Shown piece by piece: positions 3,511-42,888 of a stretch of 64,000 nucleotides of DNA. The notes beneath the pieces were generated by a model. It saw only the letters and a list, made by a program, of their open reading frames with translations, was not told the DNA's origin and did no database searches. Numbering within the stretch: position 1 is the first letter of the stretch; each line of letters starts with the position of its first letter. The stretch is from Crocodylus rhombifer (Eukaryota > Chordata > Crocodylia > Crocodylidae). The stretch lies in NCBI GenBank assembly GCA_038503035.1, contig JAVSML010024368.1:273448-337447 (forward strand). The letters run 5' to 3'. Made by a program: the position numbers and the translations under genes.

Positions 3511-3785
3511 ATGGCTCAGCAGACGACAAGCCCAGATACTTTGACTGTACCTGAAGTAGAAAATCCACATTGTCAAAATCCATGGCTGAATGAGGATCTT
3601 GTGAAGACTTTAAAGGAAAACCTGTTGCAACATGAAAAGTCTAAGACATCCATGAAGCCTTCATCATCTGCTTCTGCCAGGTTATCTCCAGTTATTTCTC
3701 CTAGAAATTCTCCAAGACTGTTGCGCAGGATGCTTTTGAATAGCAACATACCGAAACAACGGCGTTTCACTGTGGCACATACATG
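3511..3785 (+). CDS. PDE4D: PDE4D, isoform-5 (PDE4D5) first coding exon
   Basis: This exon encodes the unique N-terminus of the long cAMP-specific phosphodiesterase PDE4D5: 91 codons plus two bases of a split codon. The protein starts MAQQTTSPDTLTVPEV. The block NPWLNEDLVKTLKENLL (residues 23-39) matches the RACK1-binding RAID1 helix known from mammalian PDE4D5; the same N-terminal region also contacts beta-arrestin. It ends with LSPVISPRNSPRLLRRM and KQRRFTVAHT, typical of PDE4D5. The ATG has A at -3 and G at +4, and an in-frame TAG lies 30 bases upstream. The exon ends ACATG before GTAAGA at 3786; the split TG would give Cys (TGT/TGC) if the next exon starts like the mammalian FDVDN exon. 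Relative to the 88-residue human segment as I remember it, it has one extra Thr near residue 6 and a serine-rich linker (SMKPSSSASAR) about three residues longer. The UCR1, UCR2 and catalytic exons are not in the window. In cells this N-terminus targets cAMP hydrolysis to receptor/arrestin and RACK1 complexes. Confidence 0.97.
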
Positions 3786-13560: not shown

Positions 13561-13919
13561 CAATCATCACGTCACATGTATGTGTTGGAGACAGAGCTAA
13601 GGGAACAGGAGAGGGTCCCAGACTGCTTGGGCTGGTGTGACTGAAGAAAAAAGAGAACTGCATTTACATTATAAAGCAGAGCCTATAAAAGGTAGAAGAC
13701 TGGAATATCTAAGCAGAGACAAATGACACTGAATACATAAGCATCCTGCCAAAGGTGCTAGAGGTGACAAGCATACTAAAGTCAAGGCACCCAAGGGGGA
13801 CAAGGGGGTGCAAGTGTGCCTGTAAAAAAACAAGTAAAGATGAGCGGGCAAGGTACTTTGAGTAAATATGATATTTTTTAATAAACCAAATGAGTAGCTG
13901 GAAAAAAGTTCTTAGCCAG

Positions 13920-15447
13920 TGTGGCAGGGCACTATGTGTGCCTACCACTTTAAGGTCCTGGAGCTGGCAGCCTCCAGGTGCCTAATGAGGGCAGCCATTT
14001 TACGCTGAGGGCTGCCTGTATAAACAAGGCAGTTTAGCTGCTGAGGAGAGGCAACAACATTGCCTGGCCTGAGGGCTGCTGAGTTTCAGCTGGAGGTAAG
14101 GGAGGAGCTGTAGGGGATGGTAGGAGGCTCCTGGTTCTGGGTATGACTGGAAACTACACCCTGCCGGGAGTGGGTGGCCTGGTGGGGCTACCAGTGGTGT
14201 GGGAGCCCCTAGGAAATGTCCAGCCAGTGATCACCCTGGTGAAAGGCATGTTGGGGTGCTTTAACACCTAGTCCTCACCTTAGGGTGTGTTGCAGTACAT
14301 CAGAGGTAGTTGTGGGGTTTTGAGACCCTGAGGAGGAGAGTTGGAGGCCAGGTGTGGTCAAGGCCGCCTGAGCCCTGCGGTGGTTCAAGACCCTGAGGAG
14401 GAGAGTTGAGGCCAGGCACAGCTATGGCCACCAAAGCCCAGCTGTGGAGGGAAGCCCTGAAACCCTGAGTAAAGGGGAGGTTATGAGTAATGTGGAGCCC
14501 CTAGTGTGAGGGGGGGCAGTGTGTGGAGCCCTGTGAAGGGAGAAGGGGCTCAGCCAGAGAGAGCTGAGTCCTGACCCCAGTAAGTCCTCCAATGTGGGGA
14601 GGTAGGGTTTGGTTCGAATATAACATCTGAGCCCCAGGTGAGAGGGGGCAGTGCTGAGAAGCCCCAGGTGAGAGGGGGCCAGCACTGTGGAACCACAGCA
14701 AGAGGGGGCAGTGATCAGAAGCCCCAGAGAGAAGGCGATGTGGAGCCCTGTGATGGGAGGGGGGGCGCAGCCAGAGGGCGAGAGAGCTGAGTCCTGACCC
14801 CAATAAGTCCTCCCATGCTGTGAGACCCTGAGGCACCAGTCATGGTGTGAGGTACCCCAGCTCCGCATGTCCGTAAAGGAGGACCCAGAGAGGGGGGACC
14901 CCAGGATAAGAGTACAGGTCATACCATGAGGCCTGCCAGAGCTTCCCCTGACTGGCCCAGGTGGGGGTCAGGACCAGGAGGGTCAGAAGGGCAAGGAGGT
15001 CCATCAAGAGGGACACCCAAGAGCCAGGGGCCTGGGGTCCCAATTGGCCTGGAGGTGGGCCGGGGTTAGTGTGAGCCAAAGGTCCCAGTGAAGGGACCAC
15101 ACCCGAAAGGGACCTGGTGGCAGGGAGATATGTGGCCCAGTATGATGGTGGCAGTGTCTGCCTGAAGGGAGGACTCAGGTGGGGGTCCTACAGCAGGATT
15201 CTGGGCCCCATCATGGGGGACTCGTGCATTTGAAAACATCATGATGTCATCAGTGAGGCTTGGGCTGCAGTATAGGGGAGGAATGGAGCCACAGACAGTG
15301 CCCCCTAGCAGCGGGGCAGAAAATGGGCAGCCTCCCGCCTAATTATATCTCTTAATTAATCAATTAAGACCAAGGTGTGGCAGGCAGTTAGCCAAGAACA
15401 GGTGGGCAGGCCTCATGGAGATCGGCCCCGGTAGTCCCCCTGTTACA
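13920..15447 (+). mobile_element. Solo LTR (about 1.5 kb) with 5-bp target duplication
   Basis: It starts TGTGGCAGGGCAC and ends CCCCTGTTACA (TG...CA). It is flanked by GCCAG at 13915-13919 and 15448-15452. A TATAAA-like box lies near 14017, and a donor-like GAGGTAAGG near 14093. Internal tandem repeats include a 65-bp unit (ACCCTGAGGAGGAGAGTT at 14325 and 14390), a 30-bp unit (GCCCCAGGTGAGAGGGGGC at 14631 and 14661, with decayed copies to about 14735), and a larger 218-bp repeat (14522 and 14740). No gag or pol coding sequence and no second LTR are present, so it is a recombined solo LTR of a gypsy/ERV-type element. Superfamily not determined. Confidence 0.8.
14631..14735 (+). repeat. 30-bp tandem repeat inside the solo LTR
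   Basis: Units starting GCCCCAGGTGAGAGGGG occur at 14631 and 14661, followed by decayed units (AGCAAGAGGGGGCAGTG, GCCCCAGAGAGAAGG). Such minisatellites are common in long LTRs. Confidence 0.8.
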
Positions 15448-15452
15448 GCCAG

Positions 15453-15482
15453 CTTTCGGGTGCAGTTACCCTTCTTCAGGCT
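15453..15482 (-). ncRNA. Hammerhead-like core relic, left arm of the Penelope-like element
   Basis: On the minus strand: CTGAAGA, one extra A, then GGGT-(AACTGC)-ACCC as a perfect 4-bp stem II, then GAAA. This fits the conserved hammerhead core CUGANGA/GAAA around stem II. The cleavage side (stem III and the UH site) is not convincing in this copy. Activity is unknown. Confidence 0.4.
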
Positions 15483-15550
15483 AGGTAGTCTCTGCTCTTC
15501 TGAGACTCCAAGGAAAGAGAGAAGCTAAAAATGTGGCAGGAAGTCTCCGT

Positions 15551-15579
15551 GCCTGAAGAAGGATGACTGTGCCTGAAAA
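15551..15579 (+). ncRNA. Hammerhead-like core relic, right arm of the Penelope-like element
   Basis: On the + strand: CCTGAAGA, then AGGATGACTGTGCCT, then GAAAACG. It is the inverted partner of the minus-strand core at 15453-15482. The two core blocks survive but stem II has mismatches, so this copy is decayed. Confidence 0.35.
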
Positions 15580-15710
15580 CGTGCCAAGAACTTTTTTCCA
15601 ACTACTCAGTTGATCTAATAAAAGATATCACATCTACTCAAATACCTTGTCTGCCTATGTCCTTAGACCAATACAGTTATAACCAAAAAAACCCATCAAG
15701 TAAAGATGAG

Positions 15711-19802: not shown

Positions 19803-21839
19803 CATAGATTTCATAGACATTAGGACTAGAAGGGACCTCGGAAGATCGAGTCCAGCCCCCCGCCCAAAGGGCAGGAAGTCAGATAGGGTCATAGGATCCC
19901 AGCAAGATAAGGATCCAATTTGCTCTTGAAGGTGTTCAATGTAGGTGCTTGAACCACCTACGAAGGCAGGCTGTTCCAGACCTTGGGGGCTCGGACAGTA
20001 AAGAAATTCTTCCTTATGTCCAGCCTGAAATGGTCTTGCAGTATTTATGACAGTTCAACCTCGTCATCCCTTGAGGCGCTCTGGTAAACAAATGTTCCCC
20101 CAGATACTGGTGGTCACCCCTGATAAATTTATAGGTGGCCATCAGATCACCCCTGAGCCTGTGCTTTTCCAGGCTAAAGAGCACCGTGACTCTCAGCCTG
20201 ATGTCGTAAGGTCAAGCTTCCTGACTTCTGATCATGCACATGGCTCTCCTCTGAACTCTCTCAAGCTTCTCCACATCCTTTTTGTATTGTGGAGCCCAAA
20301 ACTGGACGCAGTACTCCAGCTGCGGCCTCATCAAAGCCGAGTACAAGGGGAGAATGACATCCTGGGATTTGCTTGGGAAGCATCTATGGATGCAAGCCAG
20401 CATTTTGGTCGCTTTACTAGCTGCAGCATTGCATTGCAGGCTCACGTTCATCTTGTGGTCAATGTGGTCCCCCGTCTGTGCAGCACTGGTCAGGCCGCAG
20501 CTGGAGTACTGCATCCAGTTCTGGGCGCTGCACTTCAAGAGGGATGTGGACAACATGGAGAGGGTACAGACAAGGGCCACTCACATGATAAGGGGGCAGC
20601 AGGGCAGGCCCTGCAAGGAGAGGCTATGGGATCTGAACCTGTTCAGCCTCCACAAGAGAAGGCTGAGGGGGGATCTAGTGGCCTGTTACAAACTAGTCAG
20701 AGGGGACCAGCAGGCACTGGGGGAGTCCCTGTTTCCCCGGGCACTACCAGGAGTGTCTAGAAATAATGGTCACAAGCTGGCAGAGGGTGAATTCAGATTA
20801 GACATCAGGTGCTACTTCATTGTCAGGGTGGCTAGGATCTGGAACCAACTTCCAAGAAAAGTGGTGCTGGCTCCTACCCTGGGGGTCTTTAAGACAAGGC
20901 TAGACAATCACCTTGCTGGGGTTGTTTGACCCCAGTACTCTTTCCTGCCATGGCAGAGGTTGGACTTGATGATCTGCTCAGGTCCCTTCTGACCCTACTA
21001 ACTATGAAACTATGACCCTCAAGTCTCTCTTTCTTCCATAGCGCTAGCCAGTGTAGTGCTGCCGAGCCTATAAGGATGCTGCAGGTTTTCCTCCCAAGGT
21101 GGAGAACCTTGCATTTTTCAGTGTTGAACACCATCAGGTTCTCGTCTGTCCATTTCCTGAGCCTGTCCAGATTAGCCTGGATCACCCTCCTGTCTTCAGG
21201 TGTGGATGCTTTGCCCCAAAGTTTTGTGTCATCAGTGAACTTGGCCAGTCCACTTCTGACTCCAGTGTTCACATCATTAATGAAGATGTTGAACAATATG
21301 GGTCCAAGGACAGAGCCTTGGGAGACCCCACTGGTCACAGGGCACCATGACGATTGACTTCCGTCAATTACTACCCTCTGGGTCTGACCACGGAGCCAAT
21401 TTCCCAGCCAGCAGATTGTGGTGGACCCAGGGCCACAATTGGCCAGTTTTGCCAAGAGGTGATCATTGGATACCAGATTGAAGGCTTTTTTGAAGTCAAG
21501 ATATATGAATTCAATCTCTTCTCCCTTGTCCAGGTGATAGGTCACCTGGTCACAGAAGGAAATGAGATTGGTCAAGAAAGACCTACCCGCAACAAACCCA
21601 TGCTGGCTATCCCTCGGGATCTTGACGTCTGCCAGTCCATTAAGGAAGGCCTCTTTAAACTTTTCTAAGATCTTCCCCGGGATAGAAGTCATACTGATGG
21701 GCCAATAGTTTGCCAGATCCACTTTCCTCCCTTTCTTTAAGATAGGCACCACTTTGGCCAATACAGGGGTCTTTTCTCCCAGAACACTTGATTGTCTCTG
21801 AGCAACCACTGGCTCCAATTCTAATTCAGTACCATGCAT
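19803..21839 (-). pseudogene. CR1 LINE, minus strand, with partial reverse transcriptase
   Basis: A CR1 copy reads from right to left. Its 3' end (TTTCATAGACATTAGG, then AGGACTAGAAGG) lies at 19803. The upstream part translates into a CR1 ORF2 reverse transcriptase (about 21018-21839). Motifs in order: VVPILKKGRKVD, QHGFVAGRSFLTN, the catalytic block IYLDFKKAF, GVSQGSVLGPILFNIF, and FTDDTKL with the paired aspartates (the usual CR1 form is FADD). Part of the C-terminal region is readable at 20212-20460 (HKMNVSLQCNAAASK, RPQLEYCVQFWAPQYKKD). The endonuclease domain and 5' half are missing. A plus-strand CR1 tail interrupts it at 20469-21015. Non-functional. Confidence 0.93.
20469..21015 (+). 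repeat. CR1 LINE 3' end inserted into the minus-strand CR1
   Basis: The + strand reads as a CR1 ORF2 C-terminus: RPQLEYCIQFWALHFKRDVD, NMERVQTRATHMI, LWDLNLFSLHKRRLRGDLV, then an RIWNQLP-like block and an end near YFIVRVARIW. The CR1 3' tail follows (GTTGGACTTGATGATCTG, then ACTATGAAACTATGA). It is less diverged than its host and cleanly splits the host's C-terminal region, so it is the younger insertion. Confidence 0.92.
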
Positions 21840-22444
21840 TCTGTAGGCATTCTGTTCAAAATGGCATATTCACTGGTTTAGGACTTCTCATTTTCATGCA
21901 TTTCTCTAGGGCATACCAAGGATTCACCCCATTCTCATCCTCAGTCCCCACCCTGGTTAGTACATTGGAAATGCATCTGGGAAAACAGAGAAAACTTTGA
22001 GAAAAACCAAAGGAAAGCAAAAACTGTCAAAGAGGTTCATCATCTCCTGATGAGTAATTCTCACCATGCCTGTCTCCTTCAACTAGTTGAAACAGTTCCA
22101 TCATCATGAGGATTGCAGAGATTCTTGACATTACATTGGGGGTCACAAAGGAGGAGTAACATAATTTGCTAAATATCATCTATACAGCAGCACAAGCTAG
22201 CGTCAGGAGAAGTTCAGGCAGCAGGGCACCCTTAAGACTAGACATTTTCAAACTCAAGATTTACTCATCTGCCAGTCTCTACTATTAAAGATGCTTGAGA
22301 TGTTTCTCTTTTGAGGCAGCTTGTCTGCTGTGATGTCTTTGTGATCTTTATGAAGAAGAAGTGAAAGTCTGCATGGCTAAAAGCTAATTTACTGTTGGGA
22401 CCACTTGACAAGTTACTTTTGATGCCTCTAACATGATTGCAATG
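21840..22444. other. Intron, unique sequence
   Basis: No gene or repeat recognised. Confidence 0.45.
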
Positions 22445-27410: not shown

Positions 27411-28023
27411 CAGGAGTAGGCAATTATTTTGGGTATACAGCCACTTAATGAGTTTGGGTAAGCTGTCCAGGGCTGCAGGGGTAGCCCTACTGCTTGACAG
27501 GTGCCCTGCCCCCGGTCACCATATTGCGACTGGAAGTCCCTCCCCTTGTCCCCAGAAATACTGCTTTTGGGAAGGGGGTTTAATATTTTGTAACCGGAAA
27601 AAAATTATATACTACAAATAACATTGACCATAACATATTTTAATTTAATTTTAAAAAATTGTCCTGCTTTGTGTGCGTTTGTGTGGAGTATAGAGAGGTG
27701 ATTGCGTAATGGCTCAAAATGAGGTCTTATACTTGTATATTATAGGGGAGTGTGAGGGGGTAGGGGTGTATGAAGGGATGAGTATGGGGGAGTGTGTGTA
27801 TGTGTATATGTGGAGTGTGGGGAAGGGTGTGTGTGTGTGTGTGTGTGATGTGGGTATGGGGGGTTTGTGCAGGAGAGTGTGGGGTGTATGGGTGGGTGTG
27901 TGGCGTGTAGAGGGGGAGGGTGGCTGGCTGGGTGTGCATGTGGGGGAGGGTGAGACTGGGGGGATGGGGTGTGTGTGGAGGTGTGTGGGTGCATAGCAGT
28001 GAGCAGGGCTTTCCCCAGAAGCA

Positions 28024-28028
<5 letters not shown>

Positions 28029-28060
<32 letters not shown>
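28029..28060 (+). repeat. (GT)16 microsatellite
   Basis: Sixteen uninterrupted GT units inside the hAT element. A second (GT)10 tract lies at 27827-27846. Confidence 0.95.
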
Positions 28061-28062
<2 letters not shown>

Positions 28063-28447
28063 TGGGGGGGGTACATGTGTGGGTGGGTATGATTGGGGGA
28101 TTTATGGGGGAGGGTTTGCGGGTATGATGGGGTGTGCATAGGACACCCCACATGCCCTCCTGAGCTGGTCAGCCCCCACCCCTGCCTCATAAAGGCCCAG
28201 AACCCACATGCCCTGCAGCACTTTCCCTCCACTGCCAGGAGTGTGCAGCCCCAGCATGCCGTGCATCCACTCTGAACTCACCCTGTAGGAGTGGATCAGC
28301 TGGAACCTGTGTGAAGCCCTGACCTGGCTCACGCATGCTGCCCACCTGTGGCACATTCTGCCACCCCCCGGGCATACAGTGGGGCTGGGGCAGCTCCGCA
28401 GCTAGCCTGCTTTTCTAGGCAACCCAGGTGGCAGAGGCTCCTTCCAG

Positions 28448-33716: not shown

Positions 33717-34130
33717 GGAAATTGGGTGATCAGAAATAATGCAAAGGCTCTCAGTTTCAGGTTGGGAGTTTTATTTTTCAAGTATTTAACTTAAGGGTAG
33801 AACATAGATTCCAATTTAAGCATTGCTTATATCTTAATAATATCTAAAGGGAAGCTGGCTGGGCCCAGTAACTACCTAAGAGCTTGTATTTAGAATCAAT
33901 GTTGTTTAATTGTACCTACCAGACACCTTGACTACTTTTTTGTGGTTAAAGTAGTTTTTTGTGCAATATGAAATGTGGTAATTCAAAATATTTACCTAAC
34001 ATTTTGAAGGTGAATATTGTTGTATTTCTTTAATGTAATGAATTTAAAAATGGACTTGGTCAAATCTTTTAAATCAACATGTATCCTTTCTTAAATATGA
34101 TCATATCCTATTTTTAATAAGATAAGATAC

Positions 34131-34212
34131 AAACCTGGTGCCTGAAAGCTTGTCCAACAGCTCTCCCAACTATACAGTTGGTCCAGTAAAACATTAAAAA
34201 ATCCTTGCCATC
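34131..34212 (+). mobile_element. Penelope-like repeat fragment
   Basis: It reads GGTGCCTGAAAGCTTGTCC, CTCCCAACTATACAGTTGG, TCCAGTAAAACATTAA. This is the downstream half of the CCTGAAGAAGGG...GCCCGAAAGCTTGTCC family also seen at 41861-42030, 5' truncated inside stem II. Confidence 0.6.
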
Positions 34213-35526
34213 TTTAAAAAAGACCATTATCACTTTATTCTAAACATTGCTTTTAAATTCGGTACTCTTGCTGCTATTATAATAAAGAAAGCCTAACTGC
34301 TGCTTTACATGTCACTTTAGTAGTGTCTCTGTTGCTGCCAAGGTAGCCATGCAGCTGAAACGTGGGGGAGCTAAATAACTCAGAATGGTATGGCAGACAT
34401 TACAGGTCTTTAGCAAGAACTATGGAGAAATGTGTATTCCATTAGCAAAGGACTGGAGGAAAAACATCCATGTTTATCAAATGAAATGGAGTCAATCAAT
34501 AAAGAAATTTTCCTTCCTGTCTTCTAGGGGCTTATTTCTGCAGCTGTCACTCAGAAAATATTGCTGTTAGATTTGAGTAGGAAATATTTCTGAAGGAAGA
34601 GTGCATATCTTCACCCAAAGAACATACTGGGGAGAATAGAGATATAAAATTGAATACCCTTTCAAAAATACTATGGCAGTGTCCTTTCACTTTTTTCTAT
34701 GCTCACTTACCATCTTTTTATTTTCTCTATCCCTTGAGTATCCCATGTAAAGCCATCTGTATATATTATATATTTTCTATATCCCCTCTATATAATTTTT
34801 CTGTTCCTTCTTTGATTTTTAATGTGGACTTCTCAGTGATGTATTGCTTTAAAAAATGTTCTGTTCAGCCACTATTACCGGAGTGCAGGCTGCTTCTACA
34901 GTTAACAGCAAGAAGGCAAAGATAAGCAAGTAGTATGCAGACCATCTTATTTTACTTACTGGAAGAGTTCTGACCTCCAGTTGCTTTGGGGTTATTCTGT
35001 ATCTTGGCTGTGTGACTGTACCGAGATAAATAAACAGCTAGGCATATGCACTGATCCTTGGACCTGTGCAAACAGACGCTTTTAGACTCAGAGAACTGAT
35101 TATTGGAATTTTAAAGGATACTAAATCATCATAAAAATATCCTGGTTCCAATGCAGGGAAATACATGTATGTATAGTAATGTGATAAAGTTGCATTAACA
35201 TTTGATAATGAAAGAAGGAGACACCACTGCATGAATATTACAGCAATGAAGTTGTTCTGGAGGTGAAATGTTAAAAAGCAATTCATTCTTAAATGAGTGT
35301 GAATGGGAAATTTTGTCAATATGCCATGTGTTTTGTGTGTCTGAGTTTTTTAAAATACTTGATATGGTATTTCTTGCATGGATTTTAGAGGCATTTATTT
35401 TCTAGAATTTAGATTTAAAGACCTAGATTAGAATTTGAAATGGTCTATAATCTAACTGTTAACAGCTGTCTGAAGAAAAGCATACAAATTAATTCAATAT
35501 TGATCATTTTTAATGTGTAGGATGTA
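34213..35526. other. Intron, unique sequence
   Basis: No gene or repeat recognised. Confidence 0.45.
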
Positions 35527-41860: not shown

Positions 41861-42030
41861 AAGCAGGAGAATTGGGAGAGCTGTTGAACAAGCTTTTGGG
41901 CATCAGGTTCCCTTCTTCAGGTCTGAAGGTCTGGTTTCAGACCTGAAAAGGGGACCTGATACCCAACAGCACTCCCAACTATACAGTTGTTCCAATAAAA
42001 GGTACATAAAAAGAATCCTTACCTCAGACA
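41861..42030. mobile_element. Penelope-like inverted-arm repeat
   Basis: Inverted arms: CATCAGGTTCCCTTCTTCAG on the left and CTGAAAAGGGGACCTGATAC on the right. The right arm continues CTCCCAACTATACAGTTG and TTCCAATAAAAGG. The minus-strand left arm keeps CTGAAGA (41914-41920), with AAAA in place of GAAA, so the hammerhead-like core is damaged on one side. Same family as 13845-15696 and 34131. Confidence 0.6.
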
Positions 42031-42888
42031 CTTCCATGGCTACTTCAACCATGATACTACAATGCATTGTTTTTGTGACTTGTCAGTTGTTACCGAAGGA
42101 ATTTGAAACATTAAAAAAAAAATCTGTTTCATGGATGTGTTTTAAATCCTCAAAAAGAATAAAAAGAGTGTATTTTATGTACAGGCTTTTGCTCATCTAT
42201 AATAGAAACAGATTTTTTTGTATAAGGCAATATTTTATATCATCTGAGTTAGTAGATACTGTTTAAATATGTTATTTTTTGAGGAAACAATTTTGTACTC
42301 AAATCTAAAGTTAATTTCTTTTTAACGTATTTGTGTGAATATATGTCTACTGAAAGTAGGATCTTGTTTGGGTGTTTGATATATAGTTATATTTCATAAC
42401 TCATCAAAAGGATGAGTATAAATGTATCATGGTACATTAATGGGTCGATAAGCATGTTCATAATACACATTTGAAAGTGTATAGAGACCATTGTAAAGAA
42501 ATATATTACTTTATAATATGCAGTGCAATAAGCCTTTGAAATGTTTCTGTTTAAGGCTTACATTTTGGCTTTATAGCAGGGCTACATTGTTATGTACATT
42601 GTACCTTGGTATTCTATCCAAGTCAGATTTAGTTATTTCTTGGGGGTGTGCATATTGGACTAAAGGGAAAAGAGTAGAATTTACAGCAATGTTAATTTGA
42701 TGATGCCTGGGAGTTTTGGACTATGGTTTATAAACTGTTTCGTTTTCTGTTTTGGCAGTTGCTCAGGCATATATTGTGATTCTATTGAAGAGTTCTATTG
42801 CTTGCCATTTTTAACATATAGATGAGGCCAAAAAAGAGTTTCAGTGGATGCTTTCATTAAGCACATACAAGTCTACTCATCAGTTTCT
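42031..42888. other. Intron, unique sequence
   Basis: No gene or repeat recognised. Confidence 0.45.

Follow-up and report, generated by a model that had tools for sequence, protein, structure and literature searches.

A palindromic Penelope-like insertion with putative minimal hammerhead relics on both strands

The locus and the architecture of the insertion

The window, meaning the whole 64-kb stretch of DNA that was analysed, carries on its plus strand at 3511-3783 a segment matching the N-terminus of human PDE4D5 at 85% over 91 residues (E 1.4e-45). This segment presumably marks a PDE4D5-type first coding exon, while queries for the PDE4D core exons produced no significant match in the window. 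The preliminary description of this DNA had spoken of a PDE4D intron: the gene assignment is reasonable in view of the exon, and the insertion described below may lie in the intron that follows it, as read from the sequence. Elsewhere in the window, a 326-aa open frame resembling a CR1-type LINE reverse transcriptase was noted by eye at 20892-21869 (minus strand), as was a long CA/CAC-type simple repeat at 27717-28277, the source of spurious open frames.

A single insertion occupies 13845-15696, bounded by a 14-bp target duplication (CAAGTAAAGATGAG) at 13831-13844 and 15697-15710. Its arms are inverted (13857-13916 and 15583-15642; 60 nt, 85% complementary), and both the arms and the duplication confirm the arrangement originally described. 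Once the LTR-like insert at 13920-15447 is taken out, about 320 bp remain, arranged head to head as a palindrome. This insert measures 1,528 bp and is flanked by a 5-bp duplication, GCCAG, at 13915-13919 and 15448-15452; its TG...CA ends and the duplication suggest that it is a solo LTR. It is later than the palindrome that it splits and is unrelated to the Penelope-like element. The insert is also GC-rich and contains internal direct repeats of 45-, 38- and 33-nt units.

Read outward, each arm presents first CTGAAGAAGG, then AATAAAA (decayed in the left arm), and finally the end ...CCTTG, beyond which the right arm alone extends into an AC-rich tail of about 47 bp. The features of the insertion, and of two further copies in the window, are as follows (pLTR, pseudo-LTR).

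13831-13844, no strand: left copy of the target-site duplication, 14 bp, direct repeat
13845-13919, minus: outer part of the tailless pLTR arm, to the ...CCTTGCC homologue; 13915-13919 is one copy of the LTR 5-bp duplication
13920-15447, no strand: LTR-like insert with GCCAG flanks, splitting the minus-arm ribozyme relic inside the 3' strand of stem I
15448-15486, minus: inner part of the minus-strand arm, with putative hammerhead relic
15487-15544, no strand: spacer between the two arms, where they meet head to head (by reading)
15545-15590, plus: putative hammerhead relic of the plus-strand arm
15591-15649, plus: remainder of the plus-strand pLTR arm, with AATAAAA at 15617-15623, to the tailless-end homologue
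15650-15696, plus: AC-rich tail, on the plus-strand arm alone
15697-15710, no strand: right copy of the target-site duplication, 14 bp, direct repeat
34128-34215, plus: third copy, a single arm without the CTGAAGA half
41882-41928, minus: core of the other palindromic copy in the window, from a different subfamily with GAC/GUU as stem I

By reading, the second palindromic copy spans about 41882-42060, its other arm, on the plus strand, stopping close to 42060.

Endonuclease linkage and the one-tail rule

All genome searches were made in the window's own genome (2.2 Gb). At one locus, L001, a GIY-YIG endonuclease (Pfam PF01541; E 9.4e-8, 32.7 bits against a cut-off of 22.6) is followed 393 bp downstream by the same arm; this endonuclease is the sole Pfam GIY-YIG match at E up to 0.001 among 135 scored genome candidates. 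The endonuclease protein of L001 has at least 150 relatives (150 scored of 6,841 candidates, all matching). Four further endonuclease copies, picked for spread and open frames while their flanks were unseen, all have the arm 306-338 bp downstream; among endonuclease copies not chosen for the arm, it therefore lies 306-393 bp downstream in five of five. Three more endonuclease-bearing loci had been fetched through the arm: the distance is 323 bp in L017 and about 700 bp in L024, and L023 has only a partial arm that lacks the core. The window copy gave no endonuclease match, and a PDB search with the endonuclease piece returned nothing relevant. From its position downstream of the endonuclease, the arm is identified as the 3' pseudo-LTR of a Penelope-like element that encodes such an enzyme.

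When the right part of the element was used as query, at least 85 genome matches were found (40 scored of 3,418 candidates). Of the 30 loci extracted, the window's own was one, and 22 of the 29 relatives had both arms readable, 22-149 bp apart. Exactly one arm is tailed in all 22 paired loci, never both and never none, although locus selection favoured one tailed arm and it is the partner's lack of a tail that was unselected; the window makes 23, and wider margins agree. The tail is about 40-47 bp long, and the remaining seven relatives carry it on their single readable arm; Penelope-like elements have a tail of 30-40 bp on one of their pLTRs, which are often inverted. The tail pattern itself is loose, with 21 matches on the two strands of 400,000 unselected bases, of which some are probably genuine tails. 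The proposal made at the outset, that the repeat descends from Penelope-like elements, is upheld by the endonuclease linkage (5/5) and the one-tail architecture (22/22).

The interpretation that we prefer, with a probability of about 0.86, is that the window holds a 5'-truncated, non-coding Penelope-like insertion of two pLTRs head to head, each with a minimal type I hammerhead lacking helix III; dual-strand priming is its most likely mechanism. Within this interpretation the architecture, the one-tail rule, the endonuclease linkage and the paired stems with compensatory changes (next section) are direct observations.

Target duplications differ in length between loci. The longest exact end repeats reach at least 8 bp in 12 of the 22 loci, against 7.8% of 423 mismatched flank pairs, and at least 10 bp in seven, against 0.24% of the same pairs; a duplication of 8 bp is absent in 10 of the 22. 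The two arms of one locus are 0.881 alike, as compared with 0.849 for tailless and tailed arms of different loci (0/2000 permutations), while tailed arms of different loci, which had been selected for query similarity, are 0.872 alike. An arm's own partner ranks first in just 6 of 23 loci. By eye, inner extensions, long or short, occur on the tailed or the tailless arm alike, and junctions vary from locus to locus. The arm similarity, combined with these free inner extensions, favours palindromes formed anew at insertion, or arms later converted, over the copying of one fixed palindrome.

Under dual-strand priming, the element's enzyme would cut both strands of the target DNA, and each cut end would prime cDNA on one shared region of the RNA, with one inner and one outer internal start site. 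The outcome would be a palindrome that has a tail at one end and none at the other, enclosed by a short duplication of the target, which in the window is 14 bp long. Of the mechanisms considered, this is the simplest explanation of the one-tail rule. A possible, though less probable, route is snap-back self-priming, in which a single cDNA or antisense RNA would prime itself at the inverted repeat GGAGTCTC...GAGACTCC near the junction. Indeed, the arm consensus has, by eye, an 8-bp inverted repeat at its junction side, the within-locus arm similarity is equally compatible with such a route, and the rotifer study prefers it for Penelope palindromes (PMC3846280). The one-tail rule, however, requires two distinct end points, which arise naturally under two primings, and the anole enzyme extends both strands in vitro (PMC11167929).

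The hammerhead motif in the window and across the family

Each window core contains CTGAAGA, a stem-II-sized segment and GAAA, as had been noticed from the sequence. In the minus arm, CTGAAGA (15479-15473) is followed by an extra A, a stem II (GGGT/ACCC) that is indeed perfect in all four pairs, and GAAA (15457-15454); U16.1 lies at 15451, position 17 is G (15450), and a 4-bp stem I, UAGC/GCUA, appears once the LTR flanks are joined. The plus arm has CTGAAGA at 15553-15559, the extra A at 15560, a stem II with one mismatch (15561-15565/15570-15574), GAAA at 15575-15578, only two pairs in stem I, and G at position 16.1 (15581). Hammerhead cleavage requires an NUH site, and both window cores lack one, since G occupies position 17 in the minus core and position 16.1 in the plus core. 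Because this rule is broken, both cores are predicted to be dead: neither should cleave, and the minus core is in addition split by the LTR-like insert.

The pattern CTGANGA, stem II (at least 3 pairs) and GAAA, with 0-1 inserted nt, occurs three times in the 64-kb window, against a mean of 0.93 and a maximum of 3 in 40 random Markov-2 windows. Since the bare core pattern is not beyond chance, the hammerhead case rests on the relatives. A scan demanding helix III recovered its positive control but none of the three window copies; a helix III requirement is the wrong model for the Penelope class, and hence this null result is not counter-evidence.

The relatives were drawn from 76 profile matches, from which 11 late starts and two without a readable core were dropped, and in which window matches internal to the insert were replaced by the joined copy. 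This left 62 arms, a total that counts the hand-added second window copy and in which three arms come from the window. Alignment A2 (19 rows) consists of 18 of these arms plus one window row, hand-picked to span subfamilies. Alignment A1 included four strings derived from a pattern that fixes stem I, together with two window arms, and is consequently not stem I evidence; the four strings were removed from the 62-arm stem I figures below.

An arm can be read as (stem I) CUGANGA - one nt - stem II - GAA - A GC U - U, followed by the cut and the other strand of stem I, which places the predicted cut 22 nt from stem II. Some 100 nt separate the core from the tailless end, which lies downstream, and the endonuclease-bearing copies have it at the same position. 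Alignment and folding of family copies, suggested in the preliminary description, succeeded in that RNAalifold, unaided, recovered stems I and II from 19 aligned copies, plus one pair across the core. In A2, 92.7% of cells are paired, against 85.7% in shuffles (reached by 0/500) and 16-56% in slid versions, and the covariation score is 0.352 against 0.221 (0/500). Doubly changed pairs number 3 against 1.6 in shuffles (reached by 35/500), and further pair types 9 against 7.3 (reached by 40/500). For stem I alone the control is weaker, as the version slid by +1 still reaches a score of 0.251, compared with 0.292 for the proposed register, and the doubly changed pairs are reached in 157/500 shuffles.

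The first and second pairs of stem I form in 57 arms each out of 62 and the third in only 23, because TGC in the window's subfamily mostly faces GCC (17 rows) or GCT (15); in this subfamily stem I effectively has two pairs. Genome-wide, matched stem I patterns (TGC/GCA 1001, GAC/GTC 86) outnumber swapped ones (TGC/GTC 8, GAC/GCA 6) by 1087 to 14, these being counts of copies, not of independent events, and slightly inflated by near-duplicate contigs that hold some of the matches; reversed-pattern controls gave 0. In stem II, 83-91% of 66 rows are paired at each of the five pairs when the extra nucleotide is skipped. The alternative register without the extra nucleotide pairs 50%, 92% and 85% of the rows at positions 1-3, and 9% and 14% at the next two. 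This register thus pairs three positions only. All 53 aligned arms have the extra nucleotide, A in 52 and T in one, and it therefore belongs to the family; the extra A singled out in the preliminary description is real, but it is no peculiarity of the window copy.

CUGANGA is intact in 40 of 62 arms and GAAA in 31, the G of GAAA varying as expected for a decayed CpG. U stands at position 16.1 in 57 of the 62 arms, and position 17 is other than G in 61, so that of the cleavage site and stem III that had been looked for in the copies, a UH site is found in most arms, and stem III is absent, as in the Penelope class. Every essential position together with a 3-bp stem I is retained in just 3 of 62 arms.

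The Rfam hammerhead models, a check proposed at the start for the window repeat, left the window insert, 20 loci, the second window copy and the best-looking copy without a match at E up to 10. A genome search with RF00163 also gave none (73 scored of 238,316 candidates), and neither did its control. That the Rfam models are blind to this hammerhead form is favoured over a form too degenerate to match, because of the covariation. A covariance model built from 19 rows returned nine matches in 264 kb, six being its own rows. The plus-arm core (15545-15590, E 6.6e-10) and the minus-arm core (15441-15486, minus strand, E 2.1e-7) both matched, their subfamily being included in the model, and the second window copy scored E 1.4e-10 as a row used in building it. 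The ninth match, at L039 (E 0.0095), is a separate family with stem I GCAU/AUGC and canonical CUGAUGA; the L041 copy of that family was not reported by the model in the same 264 kb. Ribozyme relics on both strands, as initially proposed, are thus supported as homology by the family stems and the covariance-model matches.

Could the hammerhead likeness of a Penelope-like element be accidental conservation without RNA structure? The missing Rfam match, a bare core expected about once per 64 kb by chance and the weak stem I of the window's own subfamily would fit such a reading, which we nevertheless consider improbable. Both stems were found unaided and with double-sided changes, matched stem I patterns far exceed swapped ones (again as copies rather than independent events), and the L039/L041 family, outside the model rows, has its own stem I and CUGAUGA. 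In addition, a review reports hammerhead motifs in all available Penelope sequences (PMC6155905). The chance-motif reading was rejected on the unaided stems, the double-sided changes and the matched stem I counts.

A generic descriptor that contained no family sequence recovered five minimal hammerheads in 360,693 bases, each with exactly one inserted nucleotide; in the same bases it found none with zero or two inserted nucleotides, and none in the reversed sequence. L012 and L019 among these five had been fetched for arm similarity, whereas L039, L041 and L045 are stretches of the PDE4D contig chosen regardless of repeats. The matches at L039:5461-5508 (minus strand) and at L041 from 1853 (plus strand) represent a second Penelope-like family, with CUGAUGA, a 4-bp stem I (GCAU/AUGC) and a 6-bp stem II; judged on these elements, this family has departed less from an intact minimal hammerhead than have the copies in the window. 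The match at L045:8002-8047 (plus strand) shows CUGAUGA, a 5-bp stem I (UCUGC/GCAGA), a 5-bp stem II and an intact UU/G site (the slash marking the cut), and has no Rfam hammerhead match. A pattern search of viral contigs for a fish-type core gave 0 matches.

Comparison with known Penelope systems

Minimal type I hammerheads of Penelope-like elements were reportedly described by Cervera and de la Pena (2014) and by Lunse, Weinberg and Breaker (2017). The motifs described here resemble them in pLTR location, in the absence of helix III and in the conserved core, and may differ in that the family arms carry one extra nucleotide between A9 and stem II (53/53). Fish and frog Penelope hammerheads also have one extra nucleotide at this place, and De la Pena and Flores (2001) are said to provide a viroid precedent for an additional nucleotide in the hammerhead core.

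Two publications describe Penelope hammerheads as minimal type I motifs without helix III (PMC6155905, PMC7761336), and one of them describes thousands of minimal hammerheads in many metazoan genomes, arranged in tandem and possibly cleaving as dimers (PMC7761336). In the family arms, a self-complementary AGCU after GAA would suit dimers. The insertion is a well-documented case of an already known kind.

Another comparison is with PAc, a Poseidon-type element of Anolis carolinensis. In that element both strands are cut and extended, and reverse transcription starts internally at two sites whose interval equals the tail (PMC11167929). Our family shares with PAc the hammerhead upstream of an internal AC-rich start region of reverse transcription and the two-start tail; in PAc, the ORF starts at stem II and the cut falls 26 bp into the ORF (PMC11167929), whereas the cut predicted here lies 22 nt from stem II. 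The PAc ribozyme requires protein (PMC11167929). The ancestral ribozyme of our family may once have cleaved, probably as dimers or with protein, its activity having been lost in the window copy.

With the Penelope elements of Adineta vaga the family shares inverted pLTRs, short target duplications (8-10 bp in the rotifer), a tail on one of the inverted pLTRs, which is optional there, and a palindrome at the pLTR 5' end (PMC3846280). In the rotifer, coding or captured sequence lies between the pLTRs (PMC3846280), while just 22-149 bp separate the arms of our 22 paired loci.

Inverted arms inside a target duplication, a non-coding body and many copies would also describe a foldback or MITE-type DNA transposon, with CTGAAGA and GAAA in its inverted ends by coincidence, and we regard this as very unlikely. 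The ends are asymmetric, with one tail per copy, the duplication length is variable and the junctions differ by eye between loci, and the arm downstream of GIY-YIG contradicts it directly; this candidate was rejected on the single tail (22/22) and the endonuclease linkage (5/5). That the cores are retained for a PDE4D function, as domesticated intronic ribozymes like that of RECK, has a precedent in the conserved amniote intronic hammerheads on record (PMC6155905) and is nonetheless hardly credible, given the broken NUH rule in both cores, the split minus core and the scatter of such copies across the genome. The amniote RECK and DTNB hammerheads are, according to the same review, also intronic and thought to be retroelement-derived, but they are conserved across species, whereas the copies described here are decaying repeats (PMC6155905).

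The importance of the case is that a high-copy repeat of a large vertebrate genome, to which the Rfam hammerhead models are blank, turns out to be a family of Penelope-like elements whose minimal hammerheads are nearly intact in a few copies. Should the one-tail rule extend past the 22 loci, the short palindromes of this genome would record the way in which two cDNA ends are joined by Penelope enzymes; the anole study calls these steps yet to be validated (PMC11167929). We offer a stronger version only tentatively: all palindromic insertions of the family might be one-tailed through obligate priming of two strands at two internal sites, in which case palindromes all over the genome would be its fossils, and the hammerhead might be a distinct variant, with an obligate one-nt insertion next to A9 across subfamilies with different stems, that needs dimerization or the protein of the element in order to work.

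Finally, 41884-41980 and the palindromic loci score below cut-off against several microRNA precursor families, scores that probably reflect the long hairpin of the palindromes.
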